DNA of 43,500 bases from a virus, in IMG/VR virus record IMGVR_UViG_3300046492_000111, positions 1 through 43,500 of that record; one strand, written 5' to 3'. The translations under genes were made by a program, and so were the position numbers. A model generated the notes under the pieces. It was not told the origin of the DNA. It made no database searches and saw nothing but the letters and a program-made list of their open reading frames with translations. Within the stretch, counting starts at the first letter, position 1. Each line of letters opens with the position of its first letter. This document shows positions 11,113 to 39,776 of the stretch, piece by piece.

Positions 11113-12192
11113 ATGGTGTCAGTTTCTATCACCCAACGCGGCGCAACATCCTTCCGTCTGCGAACCCGCTGGAAGGACGACGAAGGCGTCGAGCAAGAAG
11201 TAAATGAGACGATGCGCGGCACGCGCGCCGTCGCCGAAGCGAAGAAATCCGCTATCCTAAGCCGCTTCCAAAGCGGTCAGATGACCCGCCTGTCAACTGA
11301 CACCGTCGCTGGTTACATCCACGCTTGGATCGATCGCCGATTGGCGCACGGCGAAATCCGCCGGTCATCCGCCCAAACCTACCGCTCCGTTATCCCCCTC
11401 TTCACCGATGTCCTCGGCGACAAGCAACTCGTCGCTGTCAACGCGGCAAACCTTCGCGACTGGGTCTCTCAGACCGTCGTTGCGCACGGTGCAAAATCGA
11501 CGCAGTACACGGGCCGGGTTGTCAAGAAGGCGTTTAAGCAAGCCGTTAAGGAAGGCGTGCTAGCGTTCAGCCCGTGGGAACAGGTGGACCTTCCGCCCAA
11601 GCAAGAAGCCCATAAAGAAGATACGCTTGACGAGGATGAAGTGAAAAAGGTGTGGGACTGCTCCTACGGCTACAAGTACGGTCTCGCCGCCCGCATATGC
11701 CTGGAGACCGGTCTGCGTCGTGGCGAAGTCGCCGCACTGCGTTGGGCTGACATTACCCGCGACGGCGTCATCAATGTCGCGCGCACGGTGGTCGTTATCC
11801 GGGGTGGCGGCGTCGAGCTCACGGAGCCGAAGACGAAACGCTCGCGCCGCAAGGTGCGCGTCTCGGTGACGCTGGCGGAAGAAATCAACACGCTGCGTGA
11901 AGGCCAGAACCCGAAGGATTTCATCTTCGGCGGCAAGGAGCCACCTTACCCCAGCGTGCTCTCGTCGGGCATCGAGGCGGTGATGAGGTCGGCGGGTGTC
12001 ACCCGCTTCACAGCGCACGATTTGCGACATGCCCACGCGACGCATTTGCTGCGCTCCAACACGGTTTCCCCGGCTGCTGTTTCGCGTCGGTTGGGGCATT
12101 CGAAGACGAGCATTACGCTCGACGTTTACTCCCACGCGCTCGATGTTGACGAGGACCGGATCATCGGCGCCGTAAACAACTATTTGCGCTGA
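11113..12192 (+). CDS. int: Tyrosine-family integrase
   Basis: This 359-residue site-specific recombinase makes the phage temperate. The N-terminal region (1-60) resembles an arm-binding domain and 60-165 the SAM-like core-binding domain. The catalytic domain shows R202 (G-L-R-R-G-E), H302 and R305 (H-D-L-R-H-A-H), H329 (R-L-G-H) and nucleophile Y339 (D-V-Y-S-H-A). The start follows a strong ribosome site (aaaggag). It is the last gene of the plus-strand early block, converging with the structural genes. The adjoining repeat-rich spacer is the likely attP. Confidence 0.95.
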   Translation: MVSVSITQRGATSFRLRTRWKDDEGVEQEVNETMRGTRAVAEAKKSAILSRFQSGQMTRLSTDTVAGYIHAWIDRRLAHGEIRRSSAQTYRSVIPLFTDVLGDKQLVAVNAANLRDWVSQTVVAHGAKSTQYTGRVVKKAFKQAVKEGVLAFSPWEQVDLPPKQEAHKEDTLDEDEVKKVWDCSYGYKYGLAARICLETGLRRGEVAALRWADITRDGVINVARTVVVIRGGGVELTEPKTKRSRRKVRVSVTLAEEINTLREGQNPKDFIFGGKEPPYPSVLSSGIEAVMRSAGVTRFTAHDLRHAHATHLLRSNTVSPAAVSRRLGHSKTSITLDVYSHALDVDEDRIIGAVNNYLR

Positions 12193-27431: not shown

Positions 27432-28400
27432 TTAGGTCAGGTCGCGGGCGATGCCGTGGGCCTTTTCGGTGTGGACCTTGAGACCGAATTCGACCAGGAG
27501 CATTTCGCGCTTGCTGTCACCGTTTTCGGCGAGCGGCTTGGTGCGGAAGTCGCGGAGGAACTGGAGGGACGCGTATTCCGGGTCAACGAGGTACGCGGTG
27601 TCAACCGGCATGAAGCGGTTCGGCACGAACGTGACAGAACCAAAGTCCGAGACGTACACGTCAGCGGCGCCGATGATCGTCGCAGCCTTGTTGCCGGTCT
27701 CGCGGCGCTGCTGGGCGATGCCGGTGAAGCCGGAGGCGACACCCTTCTGCTTCGCACCGACCATGGCCAAGCCAACCTGACCGCCGGAAGCCCAAACCTG
27801 CTGAATGACGTTCTTGAGGATCGTCTCAGTGAAGGCACGGGCCGTGCCGTTGACGTAGGCGGCGTTCGGGTAGCCGTCCGTGGTCGCCGAAAGCGTCGGG
27901 TTCGTGCCGCCAGCCGCCTTGTCAACGTTGGTCGTCAGGAACGCGCCGAAACCGGCGGTCTGGCGAGCCGTGCCGGTGGAACCACCGACCGCAGCCTTCT
28001 GGCCAGCGATACGGACTTCCATGTCACGCTTGATTTCGGCGGATGCCTTGGCCTTTTCGTAGGCCATGACGCCCTTGATGCCAGCCTTCGTGACTGCTTC
28101 CGCAGTGCCGGAGGTCTGGATCGTCTTGGTCATGATCTGCGTGTAGTTGCCAAGGCGGTTCGTCGGCGTGCGCGTGTCGTTGGCAGCGTCGCCACCGTCA
28201 ACCGCAGCGTTGTCACCGTTCGCAGCGGCGAGACCGTCAGTCTGCCATTCGAAGTAGGTGTTGGAGACATTGCCGCGTCCGATGTTGGACATCAGCGGGG
28301 TGTCTTCCGGCGCGATGTTGTAGATTACGTCCGAGAGCTCTTCGCGGACGGCCTTGTTGATGTCGTACCGGTCAACAGTACCGGTGGGTTTAGCTGGCAT
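27432..28400 (-). CDS. Major capsid protein (SU10/DUF5309 type, HK97 fold)
   Basis: This 322-residue protein has N-I-A-P-E-D-T-P-L-M-S-N-I-G near the N-terminus, N-R-L-G-N-Y-T-Q-I-M-T-K-T, a helical K-R-D-M-E-V-R-I spine and a strand-rich C-terminus with F-L-R-D-F-R-T. This matches the SU10-type major capsid family (DUF5309). The start has a strong ribosome site (aggaagtga). It follows the scaffold gene by 13 bases, the usual order. No N-terminal delta domain is visible, consistent with the separate scaffold. Confidence 0.9.
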   Translation of the reverse strand: MPAKPTGTVDRYDINKAVREELSDVIYNIAPEDTPLMSNIGRGNVSNTYFEWQTDGLAAANGDNAAVDGGDAANDTRTPTNRLGNYTQIMTKTIQTSGTAEAVTKAGIKGVMAYEKAKASAEIKRDMEVRIAGQKAAVGGSTGTARQTAGFGAFLTTNVDKAAGGTNPTLSATTDGYPNAAYVNGTARAFTETILKNVIQQVWASGGQVGLAMVGAKQKGVASGFTGIAQQRRETGNKAATIIGAADVYVSDFGSVTFVPNRFMPVDTAYLVDPEYASLQFLRDFRTKPLAENGDSKREMLLVEFGLKVHTEKAHGIARDLT

Positions 28401-28413
28401 TTCTCGTCACTTC

Positions 28414-29451
28414 CTATGGATCAAGTTGCTCAAACAGGGAGGCTGCATCACGGATGCTGCCGGACTTACCAAGACGCTGCTTTGCGCGGGAAACGTTGGA
28501 GACGGTGCGGGTTTTGGCCGAATTCGGGCTACCGGGAGAGACGGACTTGGGGCCGTTCGGGGCACTCGGCTGTGGCTTTTTCGCCATCAACTCGTCGTAC
28601 CGCATGGCCTTGTAGAGAGCGAGCACCGCACGATGATCGTAGGTCTGCTTCAGTTCCTCCTCGGCGAAACCGAGTTTCTGGCCGTAGGCCATCAGCTTGT
28701 CACGGTCAGCATTCCAGCGGTTGGCGTCTTGCCACGCGGGCATAGCTTTGGCCAATTCGCGGCTGGAGGTGTTTAGGGCCTCCGCGATCGCCGCTTGCTG
28801 TTGCTGCTGTGCAATCTGTTCGAGGCGTTGCCGCTCTTGCTGGGCAGCGCCGTGTCGCGCCGATTTTTCCCGCCAAGCAACTTCTTGCCTCAAGTATTCA
28901 TTCGGATCGTTCGCCAGCAAATCGGCCCAATCCGGTTCGACTTCCATGCCAGCTTCGATTTGCTGGATGAGGAGCGGGAGGAGTTGAGCGTACTGCGCGC
29001 GTTCGGTCTGAATGGCCTGCCGATCGCCTTCAAACGACCGTCGCTCGTCGGCGAGGGTCATCTTACTGCGCGTGTAATCCGCCTGACGCTGATACCCAGC
29101 CAGAGCTTCCTTGAGCGTGACCGTCTCTTCCTTGCCGCCGATCTTGACGGTGAAAGGACGCTCCAACAGCTTTTCGTCGTCTGCTGTGTCGTCGTCGTCG
29201 GTGGTGGCTTCTTCTTCGTCAGCACCCTCTTCGTCCGAACTGTCGTCTTCCTCTTCGGAAGGCTCCTCGTCGTCTTCAGGTGGCGTCTCTTCTTCGGAAG
29301 TGTCTGCCGCAGTGCCTTCGACCGGTTCGGTCTCGGCGTTCTCGTCAGCGGTCTCGATTGTGGAAGGCTCTGTGTTGTCCGGTTCGGAAAGAGCTTCGAT
29401 GCGCGAGGCGGCTTCTGCGAGCCCGATGCCATTAGGCGTGTCGGTATTCAT
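28414..29451 (-). CDS. Scaffolding protein
   Basis: This 345-residue protein has an extremely acidic first ~95 residues (runs of D and E). A short G-G-K-E-E-T-V-T-L-K-E-A-L-A-G-Y segment follows, then a long helical region rich in Q and E (Q-Q-Q-Q-Q near 215) and a basic C-terminus. That architecture and the place directly before the major capsid gene identify a capsid scaffold. The C-terminal basic helix would bind the capsid shell. A gaggt ribosome site precedes the start. Confidence 0.85.
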   Translation of the reverse strand: MNTDTPNGIGLAEAASRIEALSEPDNTEPSTIETADENAETEPVEGTAADTSEEETPPEDDEEPSEEEDDSSDEEGADEEEATTDDDDTADDEKLLERPFTVKIGGKEETVTLKEALAGYQRQADYTRSKMTLADERRSFEGDRQAIQTERAQYAQLLPLLIQQIEAGMEVEPDWADLLANDPNEYLRQEVAWREKSARHGAAQQERQRLEQIAQQQQQAAIAEALNTSSRELAKAMPAWQDANRWNADRDKLMAYGQKLGFAEEELKQTYDHRAVLALYKAMRYDELMAKKPQPSAPNGPKSVSPGSPNSAKTRTVSNVSRAKQRLGKSGSIRDAASLFEQLDP

Positions 29452-29496
29452 CTATTTGTACCTCAAAATTGCGTTGAGCGCAAGTGACATGTCATG

Positions 29497-29736
29497 TCAG
29501 CGCAAGCGCTTGTTGAAAGCTGTCACCGCCTGGTTGTCAGCGATGGATTGGAGCTCGGTCGTGACAAGCTCGATCGACTTGAGCGCGTGCCAAGCATTTT
29601 CGCGGGAAGCGGGGTCTCCCGCCCGCTTCCAGTATCCGACGAATGCGTCTTCGACAGTCTGCATCACCTCCTTAAAAAGCGGATCGTTGAGCATTTGCTT
29701 CGCTTGCGCGGCGCGCTTGTCTGCTTCCTCACTCAT
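29497..29736 (-). CDS. Small protein between portal and scaffold, 79 aa
   Basis: It opens S-E-E-A-D-K-R-A-A-Q-A-K-Q-M-L-N and continues as two charged helices around F-V-G-Y-W-K-R-A-G. Its start overlaps the portal stop (ATGA at 29733-29736). Short helical proteins are common at this place in podovirus-like head operons; role unknown, perhaps an assembly factor. Confidence 0.65.
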   Translation of the reverse strand: MSEEADKRAAQAKQMLNDPLFKEVMQTVEDAFVGYWKRAGDPASRENAWHALKSIELVTTELQSIADNQAVTAFNKRLR

Positions 29737-31970
29737 TGCACGGGGGTTCCTTGCGGCGCCGGGGCCGGAGCCTGTTGGGCGGCGGCTTGGGCTTGCTGCT
29801 GGGCCAACTGCTGTTGCTGCTGATCGTGCGCCTGCTGGGCGCGCTCGGTGGACTGGGCTTCGGCGGTCGAGACCTTGACAGCCGTGTCAATGATCATGCG
29901 TTCGCGGGCCATGGACTGGTTTATCTGGCTCATGAACTGCTGCATCTTCACGTCGGTGTCGGCGCCGTGGTACTTGAACTCCAACTCGGCGGCGCGGAGG
30001 AGGATGTCAGCCTCCATCTGGTCGCGCATACGGTCGTCGTCCATCTTCGCCTTCATGTATTCGAGGTCCGTCTTGCGGCGGTTCATCTCGATGTTGGCGT
30101 CGGTCTTCCGGCCCTCGATCTGCGCGAGGATTTCAGCCGGGTCGGGCTTCTGGTTTTGCTGCATCGTCTTCTGGTATTCGGCGATGCTGTCAGGCGTGAC
30201 CTCTTTCCAGTAGCTCTCGACATCCTTGATGCCTGACAGTTCCAACACCTTCGCCATGGTGTTGCGAAGCTGGCCCATATCGACGAGCGGGTTCTGAGGC
30301 CCAAGCGTTTGCAGCGCTTGCTCCTGTTTCGCCATGATCGCTGACAGGACGGCGATCTTTTCCTGCTTGTCACCGGAGCCGATGCCCACGTTGACAATGA
30401 CATTCATCTCGGCGTCCCAGTCGCGCGGATCGACCTCGACCCACTTCTTGCGGAGCCGGACGACGCGCTTCTTGTCCTGATGACGCACGACGAGGCGGAG
30501 GAGGCCGCAGAAAAGCTGCCTCATGCCGCCCTCGGCGAAGATGCGGGCGACCATTTCGAGGCGGCTCTCGGCGGCGGCGACCGTCGCCTTGACAGCGTCC
30601 TGCGTCGTGGACTGGAGCACGTCGGCGTCGAGCCCTTGCGTTGCCCTGCTGATGCCGGTGCGCTGGGCGCGCACGTCATCGAGGTAGGCAAGGACAGGAA
30701 GCGCCTGACCGCCGACGAACGGCGTCTCAAGCGGCTGGACGGCGCCGATCTGGCGCATACGGATGATCCCGCCGATCTCGGTGTTCATCACGTCATCGAT
30801 GTTGGCTTGGCCTTCGACGACCGCCGTGCGCGGGTGGATCGACTGTGCCAGGCTGTCAAGCGTGCCACGCACGATGTTGGACTTGATCTTCTGGAGGTCT
30901 TTGGTCTGGTCGGCGATCGAGTAGCCGATTGCGGTGTGCGGTTCCGGGTCCGGGCAGAAAAGCGCCAGCGGCACCTCCGGCACGACCTCGTCGTGGAGCA
31001 CATGGCCGGTTTTGCCGATCGAGCAGATGCGGTGGAGCTCGGCGATGCCGTCGCCGTCCTGATCCATCCTGATCCAGCTCTCATAATAGGGCACGCGGAG
31101 CATGGAGGGGTCGTTTGCGGTGACATCGGCGCTTTGGCGGGTCTGGATGGCCGGGTTACGGGCTTGGGCTTCCTGATTGAGCTCCAGCGTGGGCTCCGGG
31201 TCGCCGTAATCGAGGATGTCATCGATGTCATAGCCCTCGGCGACGAGCTCGCTGACAAGCTTGCTCGACCGGTGGGCGACAAAATCCGAAGTTTTGATGT
31301 TCCGGGCGTTTTTGGCGAGGATGATCTCTTCCGGCGGCACCGCGACCACCTTGAAGACCTTTTCCTTGACCCGGCGCGTCGCCGTAAGGTCATAGGCCGT
31401 GTCATGGATGCCGGTAGCCTGGTCAATGACAGCGTAGTGTTCGACCGTGTCATGGTCGATTTCGAGCTCTGGGTCTTCTGTCAGGAGCGCAAACTGGCCT
31501 TCTGACAGGCCGGTATACTCTTCCTCGGTGACAGTGACCTTGTCCTCGACGTAGTACTTGGCGAAGCCGGTCTTGCGGATCAACGCGTCTTTCAGCACGT
31601 CGTAGAGGACCATCGAGCCCCCATTATCGACATAAAAGATGTAATTTATGTATTCTGTGGCCTGTGCGGCCTCTTCGACGGCGTCGCCCCGGCGCGGCAA
31701 GAACTCGACGGCGTCCTGCGTGGTCATGAAGACCCGCATCAGGCTCGGCATCATGGCTTGCACCACGTCCCGAACCTCTGACATGACAATCTGAGACCGA
31801 CCCTCTTCCTCGTTGCCGAAGGGCTCGCCCTTGTAGTAGCGGGTTGCTTCCTCGCGGTCGGGAGCGATGTAGGTGTCAATGTAGTCGGCGGCGCTGTCAA
31901 TCGCGGCGCAAAGCGCGCCGCTGATGTCCTCGTCCGTCATCTTCTTCGTCTTCGTCTTACGCTTCGCCAT
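29733..31970 (-). CDS. Portal protein (P22/SU10-like)
   Basis: This 745-residue protein has a basic N-terminus, then Y-I-D-T-Y-I-A-P-D-R-E-E-A-T-R-Y-Y, S-E-V-R-D-V-V-Q-A-M-M-P-S-L-M-R and W-I-R-M-D-Q-D-G-D-G-I-A-E, all typical of large podovirus portals. The last ~150 residues are a long Gln/Ala-rich helix ending in Q-Q-Q runs, matching the extended barrel of P22-like portals. It forms the dodecameric packaging and ejection ring. The gene follows the HslV-like protease and TerL, as expected. Confidence 0.9.
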   Translation of the reverse strand: MAKRKTKTKKMTDEDISGALCAAIDSAADYIDTYIAPDREEATRYYKGEPFGNEEEGRSQIVMSEVRDVVQAMMPSLMRVFMTTQDAVEFLPRRGDAVEEAAQATEYINYIFYVDNGGSMVLYDVLKDALIRKTGFAKYYVEDKVTVTEEEYTGLSEGQFALLTEDPELEIDHDTVEHYAVIDQATGIHDTAYDLTATRRVKEKVFKVVAVPPEEIILAKNARNIKTSDFVAHRSSKLVSELVAEGYDIDDILDYGDPEPTLELNQEAQARNPAIQTRQSADVTANDPSMLRVPYYESWIRMDQDGDGIAELHRICSIGKTGHVLHDEVVPEVPLALFCPDPEPHTAIGYSIADQTKDLQKIKSNIVRGTLDSLAQSIHPRTAVVEGQANIDDVMNTEIGGIIRMRQIGAVQPLETPFVGGQALPVLAYLDDVRAQRTGISRATQGLDADVLQSTTQDAVKATVAAAESRLEMVARIFAEGGMRQLFCGLLRLVVRHQDKKRVVRLRKKWVEVDPRDWDAEMNVIVNVGIGSGDKQEKIAVLSAIMAKQEQALQTLGPQNPLVDMGQLRNTMAKVLELSGIKDVESYWKEVTPDSIAEYQKTMQQNQKPDPAEILAQIEGRKTDANIEMNRRKTDLEYMKAKMDDDRMRDQMEADILLRAAELEFKYHGADTDVKMQQFMSQINQSMARERMIIDTAVKVSTAEAQSTERAQQAHDQQQQQLAQQQAQAAAQQAPAPAPQGTPVQ

Positions 31971-32052
31971 CCGACCCCCAAACGTCCAGAAATTCGATAG
32001 AATTTACAGGAATTATGTGGAATACGCAAATGTCATGCTTGACAGACGCAAG

Positions 32053-32511
32053 TTACTTCGCCTTGGGCGGCGCCAACTTGACGACGTTTCCAAGCTCGAC
32101 GTACTGGATCGGCCCGCCGGTCCCGATGTCGTAGATCGAGGCGATCTCCACGGCCTGCACGGCGCTGGCGCCCGCTGCCAAGGCGCCGATCGCCACGTCG
32201 GCCCCGGAGCCTTCGGAGTAGAAAGCCGCTGCGATCCTGACAGGACCGCCGTCGTCATCGATCACGAAGACTTCGCCGGTTGGGCGCACGAGGATGATCG
32301 AGCCCCGGTCGGCGGTCGAGGGAACCTCGCCGCTCAGGTCTTTTTCCACCCATTGCTCGATCTCGTGGGAGAGGCTGGCGTTGCCAGCGAAACCGACCAG
32401 AGCGCCGGATTTCGCCTTCCAGACCTTGCGCATCTCGCCGACGCGGGTGTTGCCTGACACGACCTGGCTGTCGGCGGCGAGTATTCCGTTGCGGTAGGCG
32501 ATGGTGGTCAT
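32053..32511 (-). CDS. HslV/proteasome-like Ntn hydrolase
   Basis: This 152-residue protein begins M-T-T-I-A-Y-R-N-G-I-L-A-A-D-S-Q. The Thr after Met would be the N-terminal nucleophile as in HslV, with D14 and K29 (M-R-K-V) at the matching positions and a V-G-F-A-G-N-A strand. Later G-S-G-A-D-V-A-I-G-A and A-A-x2-I-Y-D-I-G-T-G-G match the rest of the fold. Start 32511 is set by an ATGA overlap with TerL (32508-32511). No HslU-type unfoldase is adjacent. It may process head proteins or act on host targets; the role is unproven. Confidence 0.82.
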   Translation of the reverse strand: MTTIAYRNGILAADSQVVSGNTRVGEMRKVWKAKSGALVGFAGNASLSHEIEQWVEKDLSGEVPSTADRGSIILVRPTGEVFVIDDDGGPVRIAAAFYSEGSGADVAIGALAAGASAVQAVEIASIYDIGTGGPIQYVELGNVVKLAPPKAK

Positions 32512-34121
32512 ACGATGCCCTTGATGTTGCGTTTCAGCGATTTGCCTGACACCCACTTGGAGGCGCGGCCTCCGACGAGTGCGGTGTCAGCGGCGAATGT
32601 CAGGCAGAGCGCGTCGGCCAAGTCGGGCGAGCGCATTCCGCGTTTCTTCATCTCACCCTTGCTCTCGACCTTGAGCTTGCCGTTTGACAGGAAGCTGTAG
32701 GTCGGCGCCACGAGCTCCTGACGGAGATCGTCGTTCTTCGGGATGTAACAGGCACGGGCGGCGAGCCATTCCTTGACGCAGAGCCAGAGCTCATCGCGCA
32801 GCTTCGCGGCCTGCGGGTTGTTCATCGAGGCGGTTTCCGAGACGTTGACATCGCGGACATTGAGGCCAAGCTCGCGAAGGCGGTCGGCGACACCGGCACC
32901 GAGGCCGATGCTGTCCACGCAAATCAGTTCGGGCTTGTCGAGGTTGGCTTCGGCGACAACCCGGCCCGTCGTCTCCATCAGGTCAAGGCCGTTCCATGCT
33001 TTCGTTTCGAGCACGACATTGCCCTGCCGTTTGCAAAGAACTGTCCTGTCATCACCGAAGCGGGCTACGTCGAGCCCGTAGACGATCCCGGTCCCGGTGT
33101 CGGGCCGGATGTCACGGACCATCGCGCTGTCAACGAGCTCGGCGGGGATGAGGGTGTCGTCTTCCTTGAGAGCGAACTCGCCAAGCACACGAACGCGGAA
33201 AGCGTTGGAAGTTTCGCCATAGGTAGCCCTGATCTGGTTGACGAAGTCGTCGGAGACGAGGCCGCAGTTCAAGCACGAGACGTGCATGGTGAACCAGTTG
33301 CCGGAGAGCTCGTGGTGCGACTTGTAGAAGAGGCCGGAGTTACGGGTGGGGTTCCCGATCATGATTGTCACCGCTGAGTGACCTGACATCGAACCGGCGG
33401 CGCTTTCGAAGACGGGTTCCGGCACGGCGCTCGCCTCGTCGAATACCAGCACGACGTGTTCGGAGTGGATACCGGCCATCGCTTCCGGGCGATCGGCGGA
33501 GCTCGTGCGCGCCGAGAGGAAGGAGCTTTCGGGCGCCGCCTTCAGCGTGATCTTGTCGGAGAAGAGCTCGATCGTGTCACGGATCTCGGGTGGGAGCTTA
33601 TTGACCCAGTGCTTCACTTCCGAGAAGAGCGCGTCGTAAAGCTGGGAAGCGGTGGGCGCGGTACAGACGGACTTCTGCGGGTATTTCGTGACCATGTGCC
33701 AGATCAGCACCCACGAGACCGCCGTGGACTTCCCGACGCCGTGACCGGCGCGGATCGAGATGCGGCGCTCGCCGCGTGCGACGGCTTCCAGAAAGAGCTT
33801 TTGCCAGGGCAACGGTGTGGCGCCGAGGACGTTGACAACGAAGGCGTAGGGGTCGTTCTCGTAGCGGTCGAGGAAGTCGCGGTACGCGGAAACGACCTCG
33901 TGCTTTTTTTCCTGTATTTTTTCCGGGGGTGCCTCATCCAGCACGGGGTCGGGGGCGGGGGGCTCCGGCTTCTGGCCCCACACGGTTTTTTTCTGGATAT
34001 TTTTTGGGGCCATAGCGAAATACCGTGCAGATTTAAATCTAGCGGGTCGGGGCGAGGTGGGGCGGGGGGGTATTTTAAGCCTAAACGAAAATCCATTCCT
34101 GTCAGGCTCGTTTGGTGGCAT
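32508..34121 (-). CDS. terL: Terminase large subunit
   Basis: This 537-residue packaging motor has Walker A in G-H-G-V-G-K-S-T, Walker B V-L-V-F-D-E-A, and a C-terminal RNase H-like nuclease with G-L-D-V-A-R-F-G-D-D and I-C-V-D-S-I-G. The first ~60 residues are basic and proline-rich, probably disordered. Start 34121 has an AGGA ribosome site; 34013 (M-A-P-K-N-I-Q) is a possible alternative without a clear one. The start lies 33 bases after the TerS stop. Confidence 0.93.
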   Translation of the reverse strand: MPPNEPDRNGFSFRLKIPPRPTSPRPARFKSARYFAMAPKNIQKKTVWGQKPEPPAPDPVLDEAPPEKIQEKKHEVVSAYRDFLDRYENDPYAFVVNVLGATPLPWQKLFLEAVARGERRISIRAGHGVGKSTAVSWVLIWHMVTKYPQKSVCTAPTASQLYDALFSEVKHWVNKLPPEIRDTIELFSDKITLKAAPESSFLSARTSSADRPEAMAGIHSEHVVLVFDEASAVPEPVFESAAGSMSGHSAVTIMIGNPTRNSGLFYKSHHELSGNWFTMHVSCLNCGLVSDDFVNQIRATYGETSNAFRVRVLGEFALKEDDTLIPAELVDSAMVRDIRPDTGTGIVYGLDVARFGDDRTVLCKRQGNVVLETKAWNGLDLMETTGRVVAEANLDKPELICVDSIGLGAGVADRLRELGLNVRDVNVSETASMNNPQAAKLRDELWLCVKEWLAARACYIPKNDDLRQELVAPTYSFLSNGKLKVESKGEMKKRGMRSPDLADALCLTFAADTALVGGRASKWVSGKSLKRNIKGIV

Positions 34122-34153
34122 GACATTCCTGTCAGACCCCGCTTAGTAGAATG

Positions 34154-34570
34154 CTATTGCGTCTCGTCGGGAATTACGGTCGCGTCTTCTATTGCTTGCG
34201 CCTTGCTAATGGCGCTAGGTTTAACTACCTGTTTAGTTGGCGCGGCTGGATTGTCTAACGATATCAACGTGTTAGCGTTAGCGTTAAGGTCCAACGTTGG
34301 CACGGGTTTGGCTGTCAGCGCGGCAAGGTGCGCGGTCGCGGCGCTGACAGTGTGCGTTATCTCCGCCGTCACTTGCGTCTTTGCCTTGCCCATGTAGCGG
34401 TCAAGGATTTGTGTCGCCGCTGACAATTGGATTTGTTCGTTCTCGCTACCAAGCAAGCGTTCAAGCGTTGCCACGGCGCGCGGCGATAGTCCTGCCATGC
34501 GGCGCATGACTACCTCTTGCGCTTTGAGGCGCCCGCCCGGATTTCCGCTTTCGCCTTTCTTGAAAACCAA
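34154..34570 (-). CDS. terS: Putative terminase small subunit
   Basis: This 138-residue protein starts at TTG and opens F-K-K-G-E-S-G-N-P-G-G-R, a conserved phage N-terminus. A helical R-A-V-A-T-L-E-R-L-L segment and Q-I-L-D-R-Y-M-G-K-A follow, features of DNA-binding small terminases. A 14-base perfect palindrome (34564-34577) covers the start codon, which may be an operator or limit translation. Base and codon use here is less GC-rich than in TerL. Confidence 0.72.
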   Translation of the reverse strand: MVFKKGESGNPGGRLKAQEVVMRRMAGLSPRAVATLERLLGSENEQIQLSAATQILDRYMGKAKTQVTAEITHTVSAATAHLAALTAKPVPTLDLNANANTLISLDNPAAPTKQVVKPSAISKAQAIEDATVIPDETQ

Positions 34571-34989
34571 TTGGTTTCAATCCTAATCGTTAGCTTGCTA
34601 CTCAATAGGTTAGCAATGATCGTGATCATAACCATTAGGATGCTAACTATCGCTTGTCAAATGACGGAATGTCCCATGCGTTTGATACACACTTAAGTTG
34701 AAATGTCAGTTACGGTTCAACCGGTCCAAATATGCCAATTGCCGTTACTGATTTCTGACGATGCAATGCCTACCTTGACAGGGAAAACGCGCCCACGGGC
34801 TTCTATGAGGCGAATAGAGCCTATTCCCGTTTAGGTAAGCGATTGAACGCGACACACGCCTTGTGTGAGCGGAAACTTTATTTGATCTCTGACACACATG
34901 ACATATTGACATGACACAAGCATCCTTTAGAAAAGAAGTCAGCCCGCCGGTTAGAGCGGGTCGCAACGCCCATACGAAGGACACAAGAA
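34571..34989. promoter_or_regulatory. Divergent control region, terminase versus AAA genes
   Basis: This 419-base AT-richer spacer separates the leftward structural operon from the rightward AAA gene. Notable parts: the terS-start palindrome; TTGACA facing left at about 34655-34660; element E (34860-34878); and four TGACA copies packed into 34890-34917. Repeated GTTAGC/GCTAAC-like words occur at 34590-34640. No gene is visible. It probably holds both the late promoter and the promoter of the AAA-DUF7192 module; exact boxes are uncertain. Confidence 0.6.
34860..34878 (+). promoter_or_regulatory. Operator-like element E
   Basis: CTTGTGTGAGCGG lies 110 bases before the AAA gene and matches elements D and F over CTTGTGTGAG. 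The second half-site is weak (AAACTT). ACACA just upstream pairs with its TGTGT to form a small inverted repeat. Confidence 0.4.
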
Positions 34990-36156
34990 ATGAACGCTCA
35001 CACGAAAGTTTCCCTCTCCGCTGAACAGCGCACGGCGCTTCGCCGCGCTATCGCCGCACACGCCGAATGGCCTGCCTATCGCGCTGAACGGAATATCACT
35101 ACGGCGGATTTGACATCGTCGCTTTGCCTTGAAGTGGCGGCGCGCTTTGACATCGATGTCAGCGCCGTTATCGCTTCCGTTCCGGCGAAGGATGAAAGCA
35201 CGGGCTTTCCCGCAACGGTAATCCCGGCGCCTGTTTCGCCCGTGTCGCCCGTGTCGCCCGCCAACAAATCCGCCGCGCTTGCCGCGCTAGAAGCGCTGTT
35301 GACGCAAGAGGTAGATGAGGAACGCATTGAAGCGATTGTCACGAAAAAGCTAGCGGCGGCGCTTGAAGGAACGGCGCTTGTGCGGATTGAAGTCGCCCGC
35401 GCTGACAACACGACATGGAAAAGCGAAGGAACGATGCATCCTTTGTTTGAAAAGCTTTTGCGCGTTCTTTCATCGCGCATGGCGAACGGTATCGCGCCTA
35501 ACGTCTGGATTGCGGGCCCGACTGGTTCCGGCAAGACGCACGCCGCTGAACAGGCGGCGCACGCAATGGGCGTTCCGTTCTACTTCAATGGCGCGCTTTC
35601 CATGACGCACGAATTGCTTGGTTTTGTTGACGCCGCTGGCAACTACCATACAACGCCTTTCCGCCAAGCGTATGAGCACGGCGGCGTTTACCTATTCGAT
35701 GAGGTAGATGCTTCCGACAACACATGCCTCTTGGCGCTGAACGCCGCGCTTGCAAACGGCGTTGCGTCTTTCCCTGATAGCGCGGCGCCGGTAAAGCGCC
35801 ATAAAGACTTCATTTGCATTGGCGCCGCGAACACTTTCGGGCAAGGCGCAACGGCGGAGTTTATCGGGCGCGCCAAGATTGACGCCGCCTTTCTTTCCCG
35901 TTTCCCTGTCAAGTTTGCATGGGGTTATGACGTCGCGCTTGAACAGTCGATTTCCGGTCATGTCGCATGGGCGAAGCGCGTTCAGGCAGCACGGGCGCGG
36001 GCGCAACATTCGGGCGTCAAGATTGTGATTGATCCGCGCCATAGTCAGGCGGGCGCCGCGCTCATCGCCGCTGGTTTCTCGTCTGACGAAACGGCGGAGC
36101 TCACATACCTTGCTGGTCTTTCCGCTGATCAAATCAAGATTGTTGAGGGCAAGTAA
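34990..36156 (+). CDS. MoxR/CobS-type AAA+ ATPase
   Basis: This 388-residue protein has an N-terminal helical domain (1-75), a P-V-S-P linker with three repeats (81-90), a helical/strand region and then an AAA+ core. The core shows Walker A 176-183 (GPTGSGKT), Walker B 233-240 (V-Y-L-F-D-E-V-D), sensor 1 G-A-A-N-T near 281 and an arginine-finger candidate R304 (L-S-R-F-P). This fits the MoxR/CobS group, remodelling ATPases that usually work with VWA-domain partners. The next gene, two bases on, has a VWA-like core. The start has an aagga ribosome site. The gene has fewer TGACA motifs and a higher GGCGCC content than its surroundings. Confidence 0.85.
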   Translation: MNAHTKVSLSAEQRTALRRAIAAHAEWPAYRAERNITTADLTSSLCLEVAARFDIDVSAVIASVPAKDESTGFPATVIPAPVSPVSPVSPANKSAALAALEALLTQEVDEERIEAIVTKKLAAALEGTALVRIEVARADNTTWKSEGTMHPLFEKLLRVLSSRMANGIAPNVWIAGPTGSGKTHAAEQAAHAMGVPFYFNGALSMTHELLGFVDAAGNYHTTPFRQAYEHGGVYLFDEVDASDNTCLLALNAALANGVASFPDSAAPVKRHKDFICIGAANTFGQGATAEFIGRAKIDAAFLSRFPVKFAWGYDVALEQSISGHVAWAKRVQAARARAQHSGVKIVIDPRHSQAGAALIAAGFSSDETAELTYLAGLSADQIKIVEGK

Positions 36157-36158
36157 TC

Positions 36159-37037
36159 ATGGCACGCATTGAACAGTCCTTCCCGGCGCTTGGCAAAAAG
36201 CACAAAGGGAAAATTGATACCGTGACCGTGTTTGATAGCGTCAGCGAGTTTGCTGACGCCGTTCAAACCATCAAAATGCCTGATCATTCAACAGGCAATG
36301 CTTGGAACGGCGGCGAACATGTTGACGCCGTTACTCGCAAATGCCGCACGGGCGATATGGCGCGCGTCGCGGCGTCTGACGAATTCATGTCAAAGTTTGA
36401 AGCTTTGTTGGGCTATAGCGGAAGCGCTTTCCAAGTCCAAAACGCAATGACGGGCGGCGCGCCAAACATTGGCGCCTATCTTTCCGGCAATCCTATGAAC
36501 ATGCGCGTGCGGCGCCGTGTTGAAACTGAAAAGGCGCCGCTGAATATTGTTGTCGATTGCGTATCGTCAGCCGGGATTGACGCGAAAACCCTTGAACAGC
36601 GCGGCGCCGCAATCTTGGCGCTTGTCAGAGTACTGTCAGCAACGCGCCCGGTATCGCTTTACATTGCCGCAACGGCGCTTTCATCGCGTGACATGGAAAC
36701 GCACACGTCGCACGGCGTTGTCATGCGTCTGGATAGCGCGCCGTTGGACTTGGCACGCGCCGCACACATGCTTTGCGCAACGGGCGTTTCCCGGCAAATG
36801 GCATACGGTTTTATTCAGACGCACGGCGGATATCGTGACGATGTCGGCGGCTTATATTGGGGCTATAGCAGTGAACAGTTTCAACGCGAGAACGGTAAAG
36901 CCTATTGGCAGCGCTCGCTTGGCATTGGGGAAATGCTTTATATCGCCGCGCCCTATCTAACTGACGACATCGTCACGGCGCCGGAAAAATGGTTGAAACA
37001 GATGATTGCCGAATATGGCAAGCCAGATGAGGAATGA
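36159..37037 (+). CDS. DUF7192/VWA-like partner of AAA ATPase
   Basis: This 292-residue protein contains L-N-I-V-V-D-C-V-S-S-A-G-I, followed by a helix (R-G-A-A-I-L-A-L-V-R) and the strand P-V-S-L-Y-I-A-A-T-A, like the first strand, MIDAS loop and next units of a VWA domain. The MIDAS-like site (D-x2-S-S) is non-canonical. The N-terminus has S-V-S-E-F-A-D-A and W-N-G-G; the C-terminus has M-L-Y-I-A-A-P-Y-L. I associate this type with DUF7192 proteins of phages. Pairing with a MoxR-type ATPase is the usual MoxR-VWA arrangement. Function unknown; possibly a chaperone for assembly or metal insertion, or a host-takeover device. Confidence 0.65.
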   Translation: MARIEQSFPALGKKHKGKIDTVTVFDSVSEFADAVQTIKMPDHSTGNAWNGGEHVDAVTRKCRTGDMARVAASDEFMSKFEALLGYSGSAFQVQNAMTGGAPNIGAYLSGNPMNMRVRRRVETEKAPLNIVVDCVSSAGIDAKTLEQRGAAILALVRVLSATRPVSLYIAATALSSRDMETHTSHGVVMRLDSAPLDLARAAHMLCATGVSRQMAYGFIQTHGGYRDDVGGLYWGYSSEQFQRENGKAYWQRSLGIGEMLYIAAPYLTDDIVTAPEKWLKQMIAEYGKPDEE

Positions 37038-37040
37038 AGC

Positions 37041-37060
37041 AAGGCGCCGGAAGGCGCCTT
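37041..37060 (+). terminator. Terminator after AAA-DUF7192 module
   Basis: An 8-bp perfect stem (AAGGCGCC at 37041-37048, GGCGCCTT at 37053-37060) with loop ggaa is followed by a T-rich stretch (tctctt). It begins three bases after the DUF7192 stop. Confidence 0.75.
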
Positions 37061-37074
37061 TCTCTTGTCACGCG

Positions 37075-37096
37075 CGGCGCCCATGGGCGCCGTTTT
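37075..37096 (+). terminator. Second tandem terminator-like hairpin
   Basis: A perfect 18-base palindrome (37075-37092; CGGCGCC arm, CATG loop, GGCGCCG arm) is followed by TTTT at 37093-37096. It lies 15 bases after the first terminator and should back it up. Confidence 0.6.
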
Positions 37097-37593
37097 GCGT
37101 TGCTGGCTTGTCAGCCTATGGCGCTTGCCATGGAAACGCACGGGCGGCGCGCTATTGTGTCAACGGCGCGGGCGCGGGCGCCGCAATGGCATTGCGCCGG
37201 GATAGGGCGTGACAGCCAATAGGCTCTATTTGACACAAGGAAGCCCGCTGACAGGCGTTTGAGGCGCGCCGCTGTCACATATCATCTAACATGGCGAAAC
37301 GCGCTAGGCGGCGCGCTGTGGCGGTTTTCTGTCACGGCGCGGGCGGCGCCCATGCGGTATGTGTGCGAAACGCACGGTGCGGCGCGGGAAATCGCGCGAA
37401 AGCGGGCGAAAGCGCCGGGAAACGGGCGGAAAGCGGAATGAAATGCTCTAGAGCGGGCGGAAAGCGGGCGCCGGCTTGGAATAAAATGCTCCAAACCCCG
37501 GTTTTCTGTCAGCCACAGGCACGCGCGGCAACATCGGGTGAAATCCAAAACGCCACATAACAGCAATCTGAATTGCCAGGGCGAAGAGGGGGG
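37097..37593. other. GGCGCC-rich spacer without convincing gene
   Basis: This ~500-base stretch has many GGCGCC/GCGCGC words and short repeats (gaaagcgggcg, aaatgctc twice near 37440 and 37483), and at least eight TGACA/TGTCA copies. Short frames of 60-98 codons exist on both strands but lack ribosome sites and plausible protein character. Composition resembles the AAA-DUF7192 module, so it may have arrived with it. Confidence 0.55.
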
Positions 37594-38085
37594 CTACTTG
37601 AGGGCGCCCCACAAAGCAATCATCGCGGCTTCCGCACGGTTGTGGTCCTTCTCCTGCTCCCACCCCTTGTTGGAGCCGAACAGCTTGACGGCGTGCCGCC
37701 TTGACGCCGCCTTGCCCGCTGGCGCGAGCAGCGCCCGCTTCCACGAACTCGGTGGCACCGTCTTGAAGTCCAGCCCGCGCGATGTCAGCACCGTTTCCAA
37801 GATGCCCGCCGTCATCCCCAACGAAAACGCCGTCGAAGATGTGATCCCTGGCCCGCCGGAAAGACGCTCAACAACAATCCTGTCAAGCTCGTGCTCTGTC
37901 AGCAAATCATCGAAGAGCTCGCCCACCAATGGAGCATCCAATCTCAAAGCCGTGCGCTTTGACATCTTGACCGCTTTCGCTGGCAGATCGCCGACGCCTA
38001 CCAGCACCGGTTTGGCTGTGCCCACGACCTCGACGATCGCCCACGCACCGGTCACACCGGGATCAACGCCAAGCACTCGCACCAT
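37594..38085 (-). CDS. RuvC-like Holliday junction resolvase
   Basis: This 163-residue protein opens R-V-L-G-V-D-P-G-V-T-G, the first RNase H strand with catalytic Asp. Next acidic positions are V-V-E-R-L (about residue 72) and a C-terminal D-H-N-R-A-E-A-A-M-I-A, where the last acidic residue is Glu rather than Asp. It is therefore a phage RuvC-type resolvase, probably resolving replication or recombination junctions before packaging. It is the only minus-strand gene in this part and faces away from the origin-like block. Confidence 0.82.
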   Translation of the reverse strand: MVRVLGVDPGVTGAWAIVEVVGTAKPVLVGVGDLPAKAVKMSKRTALRLDAPLVGELFDDLLTEHELDRIVVERLSGGPGITSSTAFSLGMTAGILETVLTSRGLDFKTVPPSSWKRALLAPAGKAASRRHAVKLFGSNKGWEQEKDHNRAEAAMIALWGALK

Positions 38086-38111
38086 GCACCATTCCCCAAC
38101 CTCGATGCCAA

Positions 38112-38129
38112 CTTGTGTAGGAGCACAAG
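38112..38129 (+). promoter_or_regulatory. Operator-like element J (CTTGTG-N6-CACAAG)
   Basis: A perfect 6-bp inverted repeat with a 6-base spacer lies 27 bases upstream of the RuvC-like gene (minus strand). Together with element G it is the most symmetrical member of the element family. Confidence 0.5.
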
Positions 38130-38170
38130 CGACAGGGTGTCAAATCAGGGAAAAGCACGGCTTTCGGGGG

Positions 38171-38404
38171 TGTAAGCTGTAAGTGCATTTCCTTATTCTC
38201 TCTTATAATTCTATATCCTTCTTTTTTATCTTTTATGAACTTTAAGAAGAAAAGAGACTTACACTTACAAACCGAAAAATAAGATAGCAATTTCAAACCA
38301 CTTATGAGGGGCAAAACCTGTAAGTGCCATTTTTCCCCCCACACTTACAAATCGGGGGTGACTTACACTTTTGGTGTGTTTGCAAGTCCCGGCACTTACA
38401 AACC
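38171..38404. other. Candidate replication origin: iterons and AT-rich core
   Basis: At least eight copies of the word (C)ACTTACA(AAC) lie in about 234 bases. On plus: 38257-38263, 38262-38273, 38342-38353, 38361-38367 and 38393-38404. Inverted: 38171-38177, 38178-38185 and 38319-38326. The best three share CACTTACAAAYC. Between them, 38186-38255 is a very AT-rich tract in an otherwise GC-rich genome. Repeats beside an AT-rich tract are the usual design of an iteron origin. A promoter/operator array is the alternative. No gene is visible. Confidence 0.6.
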
Positions 38405-38454
38405 CCGTGCCGAAAAGGGCGCGAAACTTTTTTTGTGCGACCCGTATTTTTTCT

Positions 38455-38475
38455 CTTGTGTGAGAGGAAAACATA
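38455..38475 (+). promoter_or_regulatory. Operator/promoter-like element F
   Basis: CTTGTGTGAGAGG followed by AAAACATA lies 68 bases before the ATG at 38543. It matches element D over CTTGTGTGAGAG and element B over AACATA. TTGTGT with TCTATT 17 bases later could be a promoter for the right early gene block. Confidence 0.45.
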
Positions 38476-38542
38476 TGATCTATTCACAATCAGAGACGGG
38501 GAACACACCGCCTCACGGACCCAAAACAAAGGACTGAGCGAC

Positions 38543-39001
38543 ATGACTATCGACGCCAAGCAGTTCGCCACCGACTTCGCCAACGGGCAGAAGATCGGCC
38601 TTACCGCAGAAGACGCTTTCAAGTACGCCGACATGAAGCAGAAGACGCCAGCCGACGAGATGGCGAAGGCCATGGGCCTGCATCTGTCGAAGGAAGCGCA
38701 GGCGATCCTCGACGCCTTCCGTGGTGACACCTACAAGGCGATCACCGTGACGGACCCCACGACCGGCGACAAGGCCGTTCCCGGCTCGATCGTGCTCAAG
38801 CGCCTCGCGACCGCGCTCGACAATGGCGACCTCGTTGACGGCGTTGCCGCCACGCTCCGCGCCATTGCGGAAGGCTCCGAGCACGCCATGGCGATCTCGC
38901 ACGAACGCCTCGTGCAGACGCTCACCTCCGCCGAGCTCGTCTTTGAAGAGACGCTTTCGGTGATCACCGAACTCCGCGCCGAGCTTGAGCTCGCCGCTTA
39001 A
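38543..39001 (+). CDS. Hypothetical early protein, 152 aa
   Basis: Mostly helical and acidic, with no recognised family. It opens M-T-I-D-A-K-Q-F-A-T-D-F-A-N-G and ends in a charged helix (E-L-R-A-E-L-E-L). Start 38543 has a ribosome site (aagga). It is the first gene after the origin-like block and element F, so it may be an early regulator or replication accessory. Confidence 0.65.
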   Translation: MTIDAKQFATDFANGQKIGLTAEDAFKYADMKQKTPADEMAKAMGLHLSKEAQAILDAFRGDTYKAITVTDPTTGDKAVPGSIVLKRLATALDNGDLVDGVAATLRAIAEGSEHAMAISHERLVQTLTSAELVFEETLSVITELRAELELAA

Positions 39002-39078
39002 ACCCGGCGCCGCCGGAAGCGCCCACCTCCCGCGCTTCCGGCAAACCATCCCTGACATCCATGACAAGGAGAAGTGAC

Positions 39079-39477
39079 ATGACCGAGAATTTACCGCGCG
39101 CCGTCAAGGCGATCCTGATCGACCCCTCGCTGCTGACACTGACAGCGGTCGAGTACCAACAGCCAGGCGGGTTTGACGAGATTTACAAGCTGACAGAATG
39201 CCAGTGCATCGATGCCGCCCGCCTCAACGACGGGCACGCGATCTACGTTGACGACGAGGGCAGCGAGAAGTCCAACGACCTCTTCGCCGTGCGGGGCTTC
39301 CCGCATGTGCTCTACGGCAAGGGCTTGCTCGTCGGGCCGGTTGACGACGAGGGCGACACGACCGATTGCGTCCACGATCTGGAATGGGCCGCGAAGAACA
39401 TCTTCGGTGTCGTCGCGCTCGACGATGGCCGCTATGTCGGCACGCCGCTGACAATTGTCACGGGAGACGTGTCATGA
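39079..39477 (+). CDS. Hypothetical protein, DUF3846-like
   Basis: This 132-residue protein opens A-V-K-A-I-L-I-D-P and has E-I-Y-K-L-T-E-C, A-I-Y-V-D-D-E-G and G-K-G-L-L-V-G-P. This order resembles DUF3846-type small proteins found in phages and plasmids; the match is only by eye. Start 39079 has an aaggag ribosome site. Its stop overlaps the next start (ATGA). Confidence 0.6.
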   Translation: MTENLPRAVKAILIDPSLLTLTAVEYQQPGGFDEIYKLTECQCIDAARLNDGHAIYVDDEGSEKSNDLFAVRGFPHVLYGKGLLVGPVDDEGDTTDCVHDLEWAAKNIFGVVALDDGRYVGTPLTIVTGDVS

Positions 39478-39776
39478 CCGAGATCGATAACTGGGGCGAG
39501 CCGACAGACGCCGCCAAGCAGAAGGACGCGGAGATCGAGCGGCTGAAGGGTGTTTTGAAGCAAAGAAAAGAAAACTTTCAGCTTGCAATGGAAATCGTTG
39601 ATAGCCGGGAAGCCCTGATACGCGAACTGACAGCGGCGCTTGAAGAGGCAATCGATGAATACGAATACAGTGCCAGCTACAAGGACGCCTACTTCCGTGA
39701 GAAGCATCGGGACGAAGAGAACATCGCCGGTCTCCGGGCGGTCCTCGCCCGCGCCAAAAAGGAGGTGCCAACCTAG
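39474..39776 (+). CDS. Coiled-coil early protein, 100 aa
   Basis: After a short N-terminus almost the whole chain is a charged helix (D-A-E-I-E-R-L-K-G-V-L-K-Q-R-K, then A-L-E-E-A-I-D-E-Y-E-Y), likely coiled coil. It overlaps both neighbours (ATGA before; its TAG shares a base with the next GTG). No family is recognised. Confidence 0.6.
   Translation: MTEIDNWGEPTDAAKQKDAEIERLKGVLKQRKENFQLAMEIVDSREALIRELTAALEEAIDEYEYSASYKDAYFREKHRDEENIAGLRAVLARAKKEVPT

Follow-up and report, generated by a model that had tools for sequence, protein, structure and literature searches.

What might a temperate phage do with a MoxR-class ATPase and a VWA-like partner encoded side by side? The question is raised by a 43,500-nucleotide stretch of viral DNA (positions 1 to 43,500 of IMG/VR record IMGVR_UViG_3300046492_000111, hereafter the window), in which two such genes form a compact unit. 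A preliminary description, made from the sequence alone, treated this unit as a transferred module and offered virion assembly, host takeover or an anti-phage function of the lysogen as its role. We examined the two proteins, their linkage in other phages and the history of the locus, and weighed these roles against one another.

The Phage and Its Two-Gene Unit

The window represents a soil-type temperate phage related to phiM5, a phage of Sinorhizobium meliloti, with an identity of about 35–78% for most of the genes in common. Its gene content includes an SU10-type portal and capsid, a terminase, an A-type DNA polymerase, a primase, a RuvC-type resolvase and an integrase (11113–12192), which marks the lineage as temperate. 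A provirus-like record of 42.9 kb that also carries an integrase, IMGVR_UViG_2740891995_000003 (L014, also L108–L110), keeps the gene order of the window from almost one end to the other. Among 84,980 species genomes scanned, no prophages of the window's clade were found.

Both reading frames lie exactly where the preliminary description had placed them, two bases apart (Table 1). Its picture of a unit set between a divergent control region and tandem terminators likewise holds, as the upstream region is intergenic and the two hairpins fold better than shuffled sequence (z −3.1 and −2.1). An Rfam search of the control region matched no RNA family, and no strong sigma-70 consensus was found in it. 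The divergent neighbor on the minus strand is called as the terminase small subunit (phrog_2538, 5e-4), and the first conserved gene beyond the terminators is the convergent RuvC-type resolvase. This layout suggests that the ATPase and DUF7192 genes are a transcription unit of their own, heading the early/DNA-metabolism arm and set apart from the virion genes; the location points to early timing.

Table 1. Positions of the two genes, their motifs and the surrounding elements in the window
Feature	Position	Strand	Remarks
Divergent intergenic region	34571..34989		419 bases, between TerS (−) and ATPase (+); leader and presumed promoter of the pair
Exchanged segment (leader, ATPase and DUF7192)	34791..37040		divergent inside 97–99% identical flanks
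MoxR-class AAA+ ATPase (predicted)	34990..36156	+	ATG to stop, 388 aa; phrog_249 "porphyrin biosynthesis/CobS-like"
Walker A	35512..35541	+	residues 175–184, AGPTGSGKTH; G176, G181, K182 invariant in 63 sequences
Helix-2 insert hairpin (MoxR-clade hallmark)	35599..35658	+	residues 204–223; short hairpin in model, conserved
Walker B	35683..35709	+	residues 232–240, GVYLFDEVD; D237, E238 invariant in 63 sequences
Sensor 1 asparagine N281	35830..35832	+	invariant in 63 sequences
Arginine finger candidate R304	35899..35901	+	invariant in 63 sequences
DUF7192 protein, probable VWA-like adaptor	36159..37037	+	ATG to stop, 292 aa; phrog_1909
Conserved strand-short helix-strand hairpin	36429..36518	+	residues 91–120, core GxxPxVxxxLxGxPxxM; directly before beta-1
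Strand beta-1 and degenerate MIDAS loop	36540..36569	+	residues 128–137, LNIVVDCVSS
Terminator hairpin 1	37041..37060	+	GC-rich, T-rich tail
Terminator hairpin 2	37074..37093	+	GC-rich; TTT(T) directly after

A MoxR-Class Motor

By sequence and by predicted structure, the upstream gene encodes a MoxR-class AAA+ ATPase, which would assemble as a hexameric ring. The protein matches Pfam AAA_5 (1.4e-9) and phrog_249 (4.4e-61). Its AlphaFold model (pLDDT 88) finds CbbQ2 and NorQ as the best PDB folds (E about 1e-12), and the top 21 matches are all CbbQ/NorQ chains of the MoxR class (E 1e-8 to 1e-12). The preliminary description had regarded the Walker A/B, sensor and arginine-finger positions as intact, and the alignment of 63 sequences agrees: these residues, together with the sensor-2 arginine R350, vary little or not at all. 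The conserved helix-2 insert is the element that in NorQ grips the finger of the VWA partner (PMC13036017). The post-sensor-1 loop (residues 284–298) is flexible and modelled at low confidence.

A VWA-Like Partner with a Degenerate MIDAS

The downstream protein matches DUF7192 (3.8e-17; 63 bits vs a cut-off of 27) and phrog_1909 (4e-34), families that until now carried no assigned fold or function in the Pfam and PHROG libraries, and DUF7192 is not named in any paper found by our literature search. The preliminary description had proposed a VWA-like core with a non-standard MIDAS site, and structure prediction of this gene was set beforehand as the test capable of refuting it. The resulting AlphaFold model (61 sequences; pLDDT 91, pTM 0.86) has what appears to be a VWA-like fold, so the proposal is upheld, at modest structural scores. 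From residue 128 onward, the order of elements is strand, long helix, strand, second strand and two helices, which resembles the start of a VWA core. When the model is compared with 350,542 PDB chains, the three best all belong to NorQ-NorD complexes, being the VWA chains of NorD; much of the list behind them likewise consists of VWA domains, including many of integrins, complement, Ku80 and CLCA1. Among viral models, a dozen of its own relatives come first, and ranks 13–29 are mostly VWA or CobT proteins of phages and archaeal viruses (E 1e-4 to 1e-2). Solved VWAs are matched with marginal Foldseek scores (best E 1.8e-3, TM 0.2–0.3), and a profile search of PDB sequences found no VWA; the fold claim consequently rests on ranking and topology. 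DUF7192 thus appears to be VWA-like, an assignment whose strength lies in the agreement of the comparisons, no one score being decisive.

The MIDAS is degenerate throughout the family. The pattern D-x-[ST]-x-[ST] is seen in 13 of the 61 sequences, the window having D-C-V-S-S; S137 is kept in 53/61 and D/N133 in 41/61, so that the last serine alone is well kept. Since the DxSxS-T-D motif does not hold across the family, we file DUF7192 as VWA-like and not as a canonical MIDAS VWA. The most conserved stretch across the family is instead the hairpin at residues 91–120 (tip mean 2.37 bits). In NorD, a beta-stabilised protrusion with a helix, joined by a single strand to the MIDAS, enters the NorQ pore as a finger (PMC9976466, PMC13036017). 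By analogy, we propose that the DUF7192 hairpin is the equivalent pore finger.

NorQ-NorD, the MoxR AAA+/VWA chaperone of nitric oxide reductase, is among the closest known systems, being the best or near-best fold match for both proteins. Both systems consist of a motor and a single VWA-like partner from adjacent genes, and the DUF7192 hairpin lies ahead of the MIDAS strand, at what appears to be the site of the finger in NorD. In NorD, the target is bound through a large N-terminal domain and the MIDAS is intact; DUF7192 is confined to a single small domain whose MIDAS is degenerate, and no metalloenzyme target is encoded near the phage pair.

Linkage and Spread of the Pair

The preliminary description would have given way had the two genes lacked conserved linkage elsewhere. 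Loci collected by the ATPase gave 105 distinct contigs, from which four ending within 500 bases were left out. Linkage is near-obligate: among the 101 informative phage contigs, 99 have the partner, with DUF7192 directly downstream on the same strand in 96 and elsewhere close by in 3; the count is conditional on the ATPase, because the wide DUF7192 alignment is too divergent for a scan of the collection. Two contigs (L039 and L153) have an ATPase relative with no detectable DUF7192 nearby, the partner being perhaps lost or too diverged. The linkage also extends to isolate phages of diverse hosts, namely Staphylococcus, Listeria, Enterococcus, Acinetobacter, Mycobacterium, Gordonia, Rhizobium/Sinorhizobium and the acidobacterium Tunturiibacter, and includes the Kayvirus and Pecentumvirus phages; in the Enterococcus phage the gene order is reversed.

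Some ATPase relatives have other partners. In Brevibacterium phage Cantare, the related ATPase is followed downstream by a protein matching VWA_2, and the CobS-type ATPase relatives of cyanophages have a protein of ~750 aa, annotated as a peptidase, upstream instead. In the MoxR-vWA(peptidase) pair known from group 2.2 jumbo phages and T4-like cyanophages (Iyer et al. 2021), the ATPases are related to that of the window (tblastn E 1e-6 to 1e-11) and a partner is linked, although that partner, at ~750 aa and annotated as a peptidase, is far larger than the 292-aa single domain of DUF7192. The occurrence of different VWA-type partners in the same position supports the VWA assignment of DUF7192. 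The divergence of the ATPase correlates with that of DUF7192 (r 0.75 vs a null maximum of 0.11), a relationship that is confounded by shared ancestry. In every pair compared, the ATPase core is better preserved than DUF7192 (median identity 46% vs 22%), a difference that relaxed constraint on an adaptor could also produce.

Relatives of the ATPase occur in >800 phage records, where the annotation often reads cobalamin or "porphyrin biosynthesis". This annotation, with the corresponding PHROG 249 label, leads to a metabolic explanation of the pair, in which viral CobS and CobT join the host CobN and raise cobalamin production, as Liu et al. proposed in their CobN-hijack model for viral cobST clusters (PMC8651126). 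Those clusters are like the window's pair in comprising two viral genes for a MoxR-type ATPase and a VWA protein, and CobS does appear among the PDB sequence matches of the ATPase (E 0.0011). However, the midasin ATPase outscores CobS by sequence, CbbQ/NorQ lead by fold, and DUF7192, a single small domain that Pfam does not recognise as a VWA, has neither the long N-terminal part nor the intact MIDAS of CobT. The window phage encodes no CobN, and the pair is present in Staphylococcus and Listeria phages. Neither Staphylococcus nor Listeria is known to use an aerobic CobN-type pathway. We regard a cobaltochelatase role as highly improbable.

Exchange of the Unit between Near-Identical Phages

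The preliminary description had read a lower frequency of TGACA and a higher frequency of GGCGCC in the pair as signs of separate ancestry. The counts are right (TGACA, 11 vs 18.0 expected, P = 0.054; GGCGCC, 9 vs 2.9 expected, P = 0.003), but other genes of the window are lower still in TGACA and its depletion in the pair is not consistently common to related phages. As proof of foreign origin, the motif frequencies are weak and differ from one relative to another, and we reject them.

Of all 5-mers, TGACA/TGTCA shows the strongest over-representation in each of three phages, the window, phiM5 and the provirus L014, with counts of 376 (67 ± 8.6 in shuffles of the window), 423 and 391, respectively, and has no extended flanking context. 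It is possibly a short signal common to the clade, such as a site for primase or another DNA-binding protein. The density of GGCGCC is 1–1.7 per kb in these three phages, and the L015 and L016 loci of related phages (6.4 and 8.6 kb) have none, which may reflect restriction-site avoidance.

A direct comparison with a sibling metagenomic contig, IMGVR_UViG_3300046455_000279, by identity profile and dS is more telling about the history of the unit. The two phages are 97–99% identical overall around the unit (98.4% over 28105–34570 and 97.2% over 37038–39500), whereas identity falls to 87.3% in the leader (34791–34989), 78.4% in the ATPase and 76.6% in DUF7192. The breakpoints, between 34724 and 34794 on the left and between 37025 and 37108 on the right, coincide with the edges of the transcription unit. 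The dS values of the pair are 0.69 and 0.64 compared with 0.02–0.09 in flanking genes, so that more than accelerated protein evolution lies behind the step: the segment that was exchanged differs in age from its flanks. The unit has been swapped as one cassette between near-identical phages, independently of the capsid and tail genes, which are 99% identical between them. Transfer in this allelic sense is what survives of the "transferred module". Recent capture from outside is ruled out, as phiM5, the syntenic provirus L014 and the L113 contig all carry the pair at the same position, and this common location across the clade identifies a core pair with exchanged alleles and not a foreign gain.

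The divergence step could in principle be an assembly artefact, in which one metagenomic contig joined reads of two strains at conserved edges; just two near-identical contigs were found in the collection, and the sibling is itself metagenomic. Such a misassembly would need to strike at both breakpoints, each at a transcription-unit edge, and to leave both alleles intact. A comparable divergent segment moreover surrounds the pair in a second lineage, where flanks 93–99% identical between L065 and L067/L068 enclose a replaced stretch of ~4.9 kb that takes in the MoxR-DUF7192 pair along with small neighboring genes. We consider an artefact very unlikely. Between phiM5 and its sibling L113 there is no divergence step and the pair evolves much like its flanks, from which we conclude that exchange is occasional. 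Selection would be a plausible driver of it.

In the locus L015, the two genes differ in their affinities. Its ATPase is 88% identical to that of L014 and its DUF7192 protein just 42%, with 58% identity to the DUF7192 protein of phiM5. Set beside L014, L016 and phiM5, these sequences are suggestive of adaptor and motor having been swapped independently; the ATPase grouping withstands an AU test on DUF7192 (p = 0.14), and we do not adopt partner swapping for this locus.

Role of the Pair

For MoxR-VWA pairs found in other phages, earlier authors preferred an assembly role in the virion or a link to cobalamin (PMC7824862, PMC8651126). If the former applied here, the machine would be a chaperone that folds or assembles a head or tail component in late infection. 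The pair does adjoin the terminase end of the late block; it is, however, transcribed divergently, on the strand opposite to the late operon and with its own terminators. In phiM5, no other unit lies between the pair and the terminal repeat. The neighbors in relatives are helicase, primase, ParB-like, resolvase and methyltransferase genes, a terminase small subunit in three cases and many genes of unknown function; tail and morphogenesis families are absent among the neighbors listed. The phiM5 record flags many products as "detected in phage particle proteome", mostly structural proteins plus the DNA polymerase and a small ORF, but neither protein of the pair; a chaperone could leave the virion, so this absence is compatible with an assembly role. 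As a separate observation, a 65-codon ORF in another frame within the phiM5 ATPase gene (L003:1349–1546) is annotated as detected in the particle proteome.

The archaeal virus ATV, known for its extracellular tail development, has a comparable pair in p618/p892, a viral MoxR-type ATPase with a vWA-MIDAS partner; in contrast, nothing ties the window's pair to virion parts. An assembly role is proposed for p618/p892 in the ATV work as cited in PMC7911831, and for the MoxR-vWA pairs of group 2.2 jumbo phages (PMC7824862). Such precedents have to be set against the occurrence of the DUF7192 pair in phages with quite different virions and against its exchange independently of near-identical capsid and tail genes. 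On balance, virion assembly seems to us rather unlikely.

MoxR-vWA pairs are also the cores of predicted conflict systems (PMC7159879), and the unit might be a moron that the lysogen expresses to shield itself from superinfecting phages. An autonomous unit with its own leader and tandem terminators, a temperate lineage with an integrase in both the window and the syntenic provirus, and allele swapping would all fit such a conflict. The ternary systems of Kaur et al. 2020 have the same MoxR and vWA core, and some of their vWAs also are without the MIDAS aspartates, but the window's unit ends at terminators after two genes, with neither an effector domain nor a third component such as VMAP, iSTAND or FtsH. 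Membership in a defence-related ternary system, a setting that the preliminary description had mentioned for MoxR-VWA pairs, is unsupported for this reason. PADLOC hits are weak and generic to AAA proteins. The Kayvirus and Pecentumvirus phages that carry the pair are obligately lytic, which makes a lysogen function impossible there, and lysogen defence therefore cannot be the general role of the family. For the window itself, we judge it quite unlikely.

Among the roles offered at the outset, the evidence tilts toward host takeover or counter-defence at an early stage, without settling the matter. The reading that we favor, at a probability of about one half, is that the pair is a two-component MoxR-VWA remodelling machine, acting early and aimed at host or host-defence complexes. 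In such a machine, the ATPase would form a hexameric ring onto which one DUF7192 protein docks, with the conserved hairpin reaching finger-like into the central pore, where it would press on the helix-2 inserts, and the C-terminal end of DUF7192 touching the post-sensor-1 loop. ATP hydrolysis would turn or pull the DUF7192 adaptor, whose variable surface would hold the target protein complex, and the target would be remodelled. Given the degenerate MIDAS, the usual metal bridge is probably not used for target binding. The location of the unit suggests that the targets would most likely be host or host-defence complexes, met early in infection or in the lysogen. Such targets would explain both the swaps of whole alleles and an adaptor that diverges much faster than its motor. 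Our literature search found no expression data for the window phage or the Kayvirus homologues, and the Kayvirus transcriptome papers do not name the homologous gene in their text.

Implications

DUF7192 may found a class of MIDAS-less VWA adaptors, with the phage-specific MoxR motor serving as a general remodeller for counter-defence or host takeover, and with an exchangeable allele of the adaptor determining its target. We put this broader view forward tentatively, as a possibility that is more doubtful than the remodelling machine itself. If it holds, the motor would be widespread in tailed phages of both Gram-positive and Gram-negative hosts. The partner is left as a "hypothetical protein" in phage records, and its reading as a VWA-like adaptor with a probable pore finger recasts a doubtful metabolic gene as a specific and testable machine, one that unrelated phages have in common, among them phages studied for therapy. 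As the allele exchange suggests selection on the target of the machine, the two alleles would constitute a natural experiment for finding that target.
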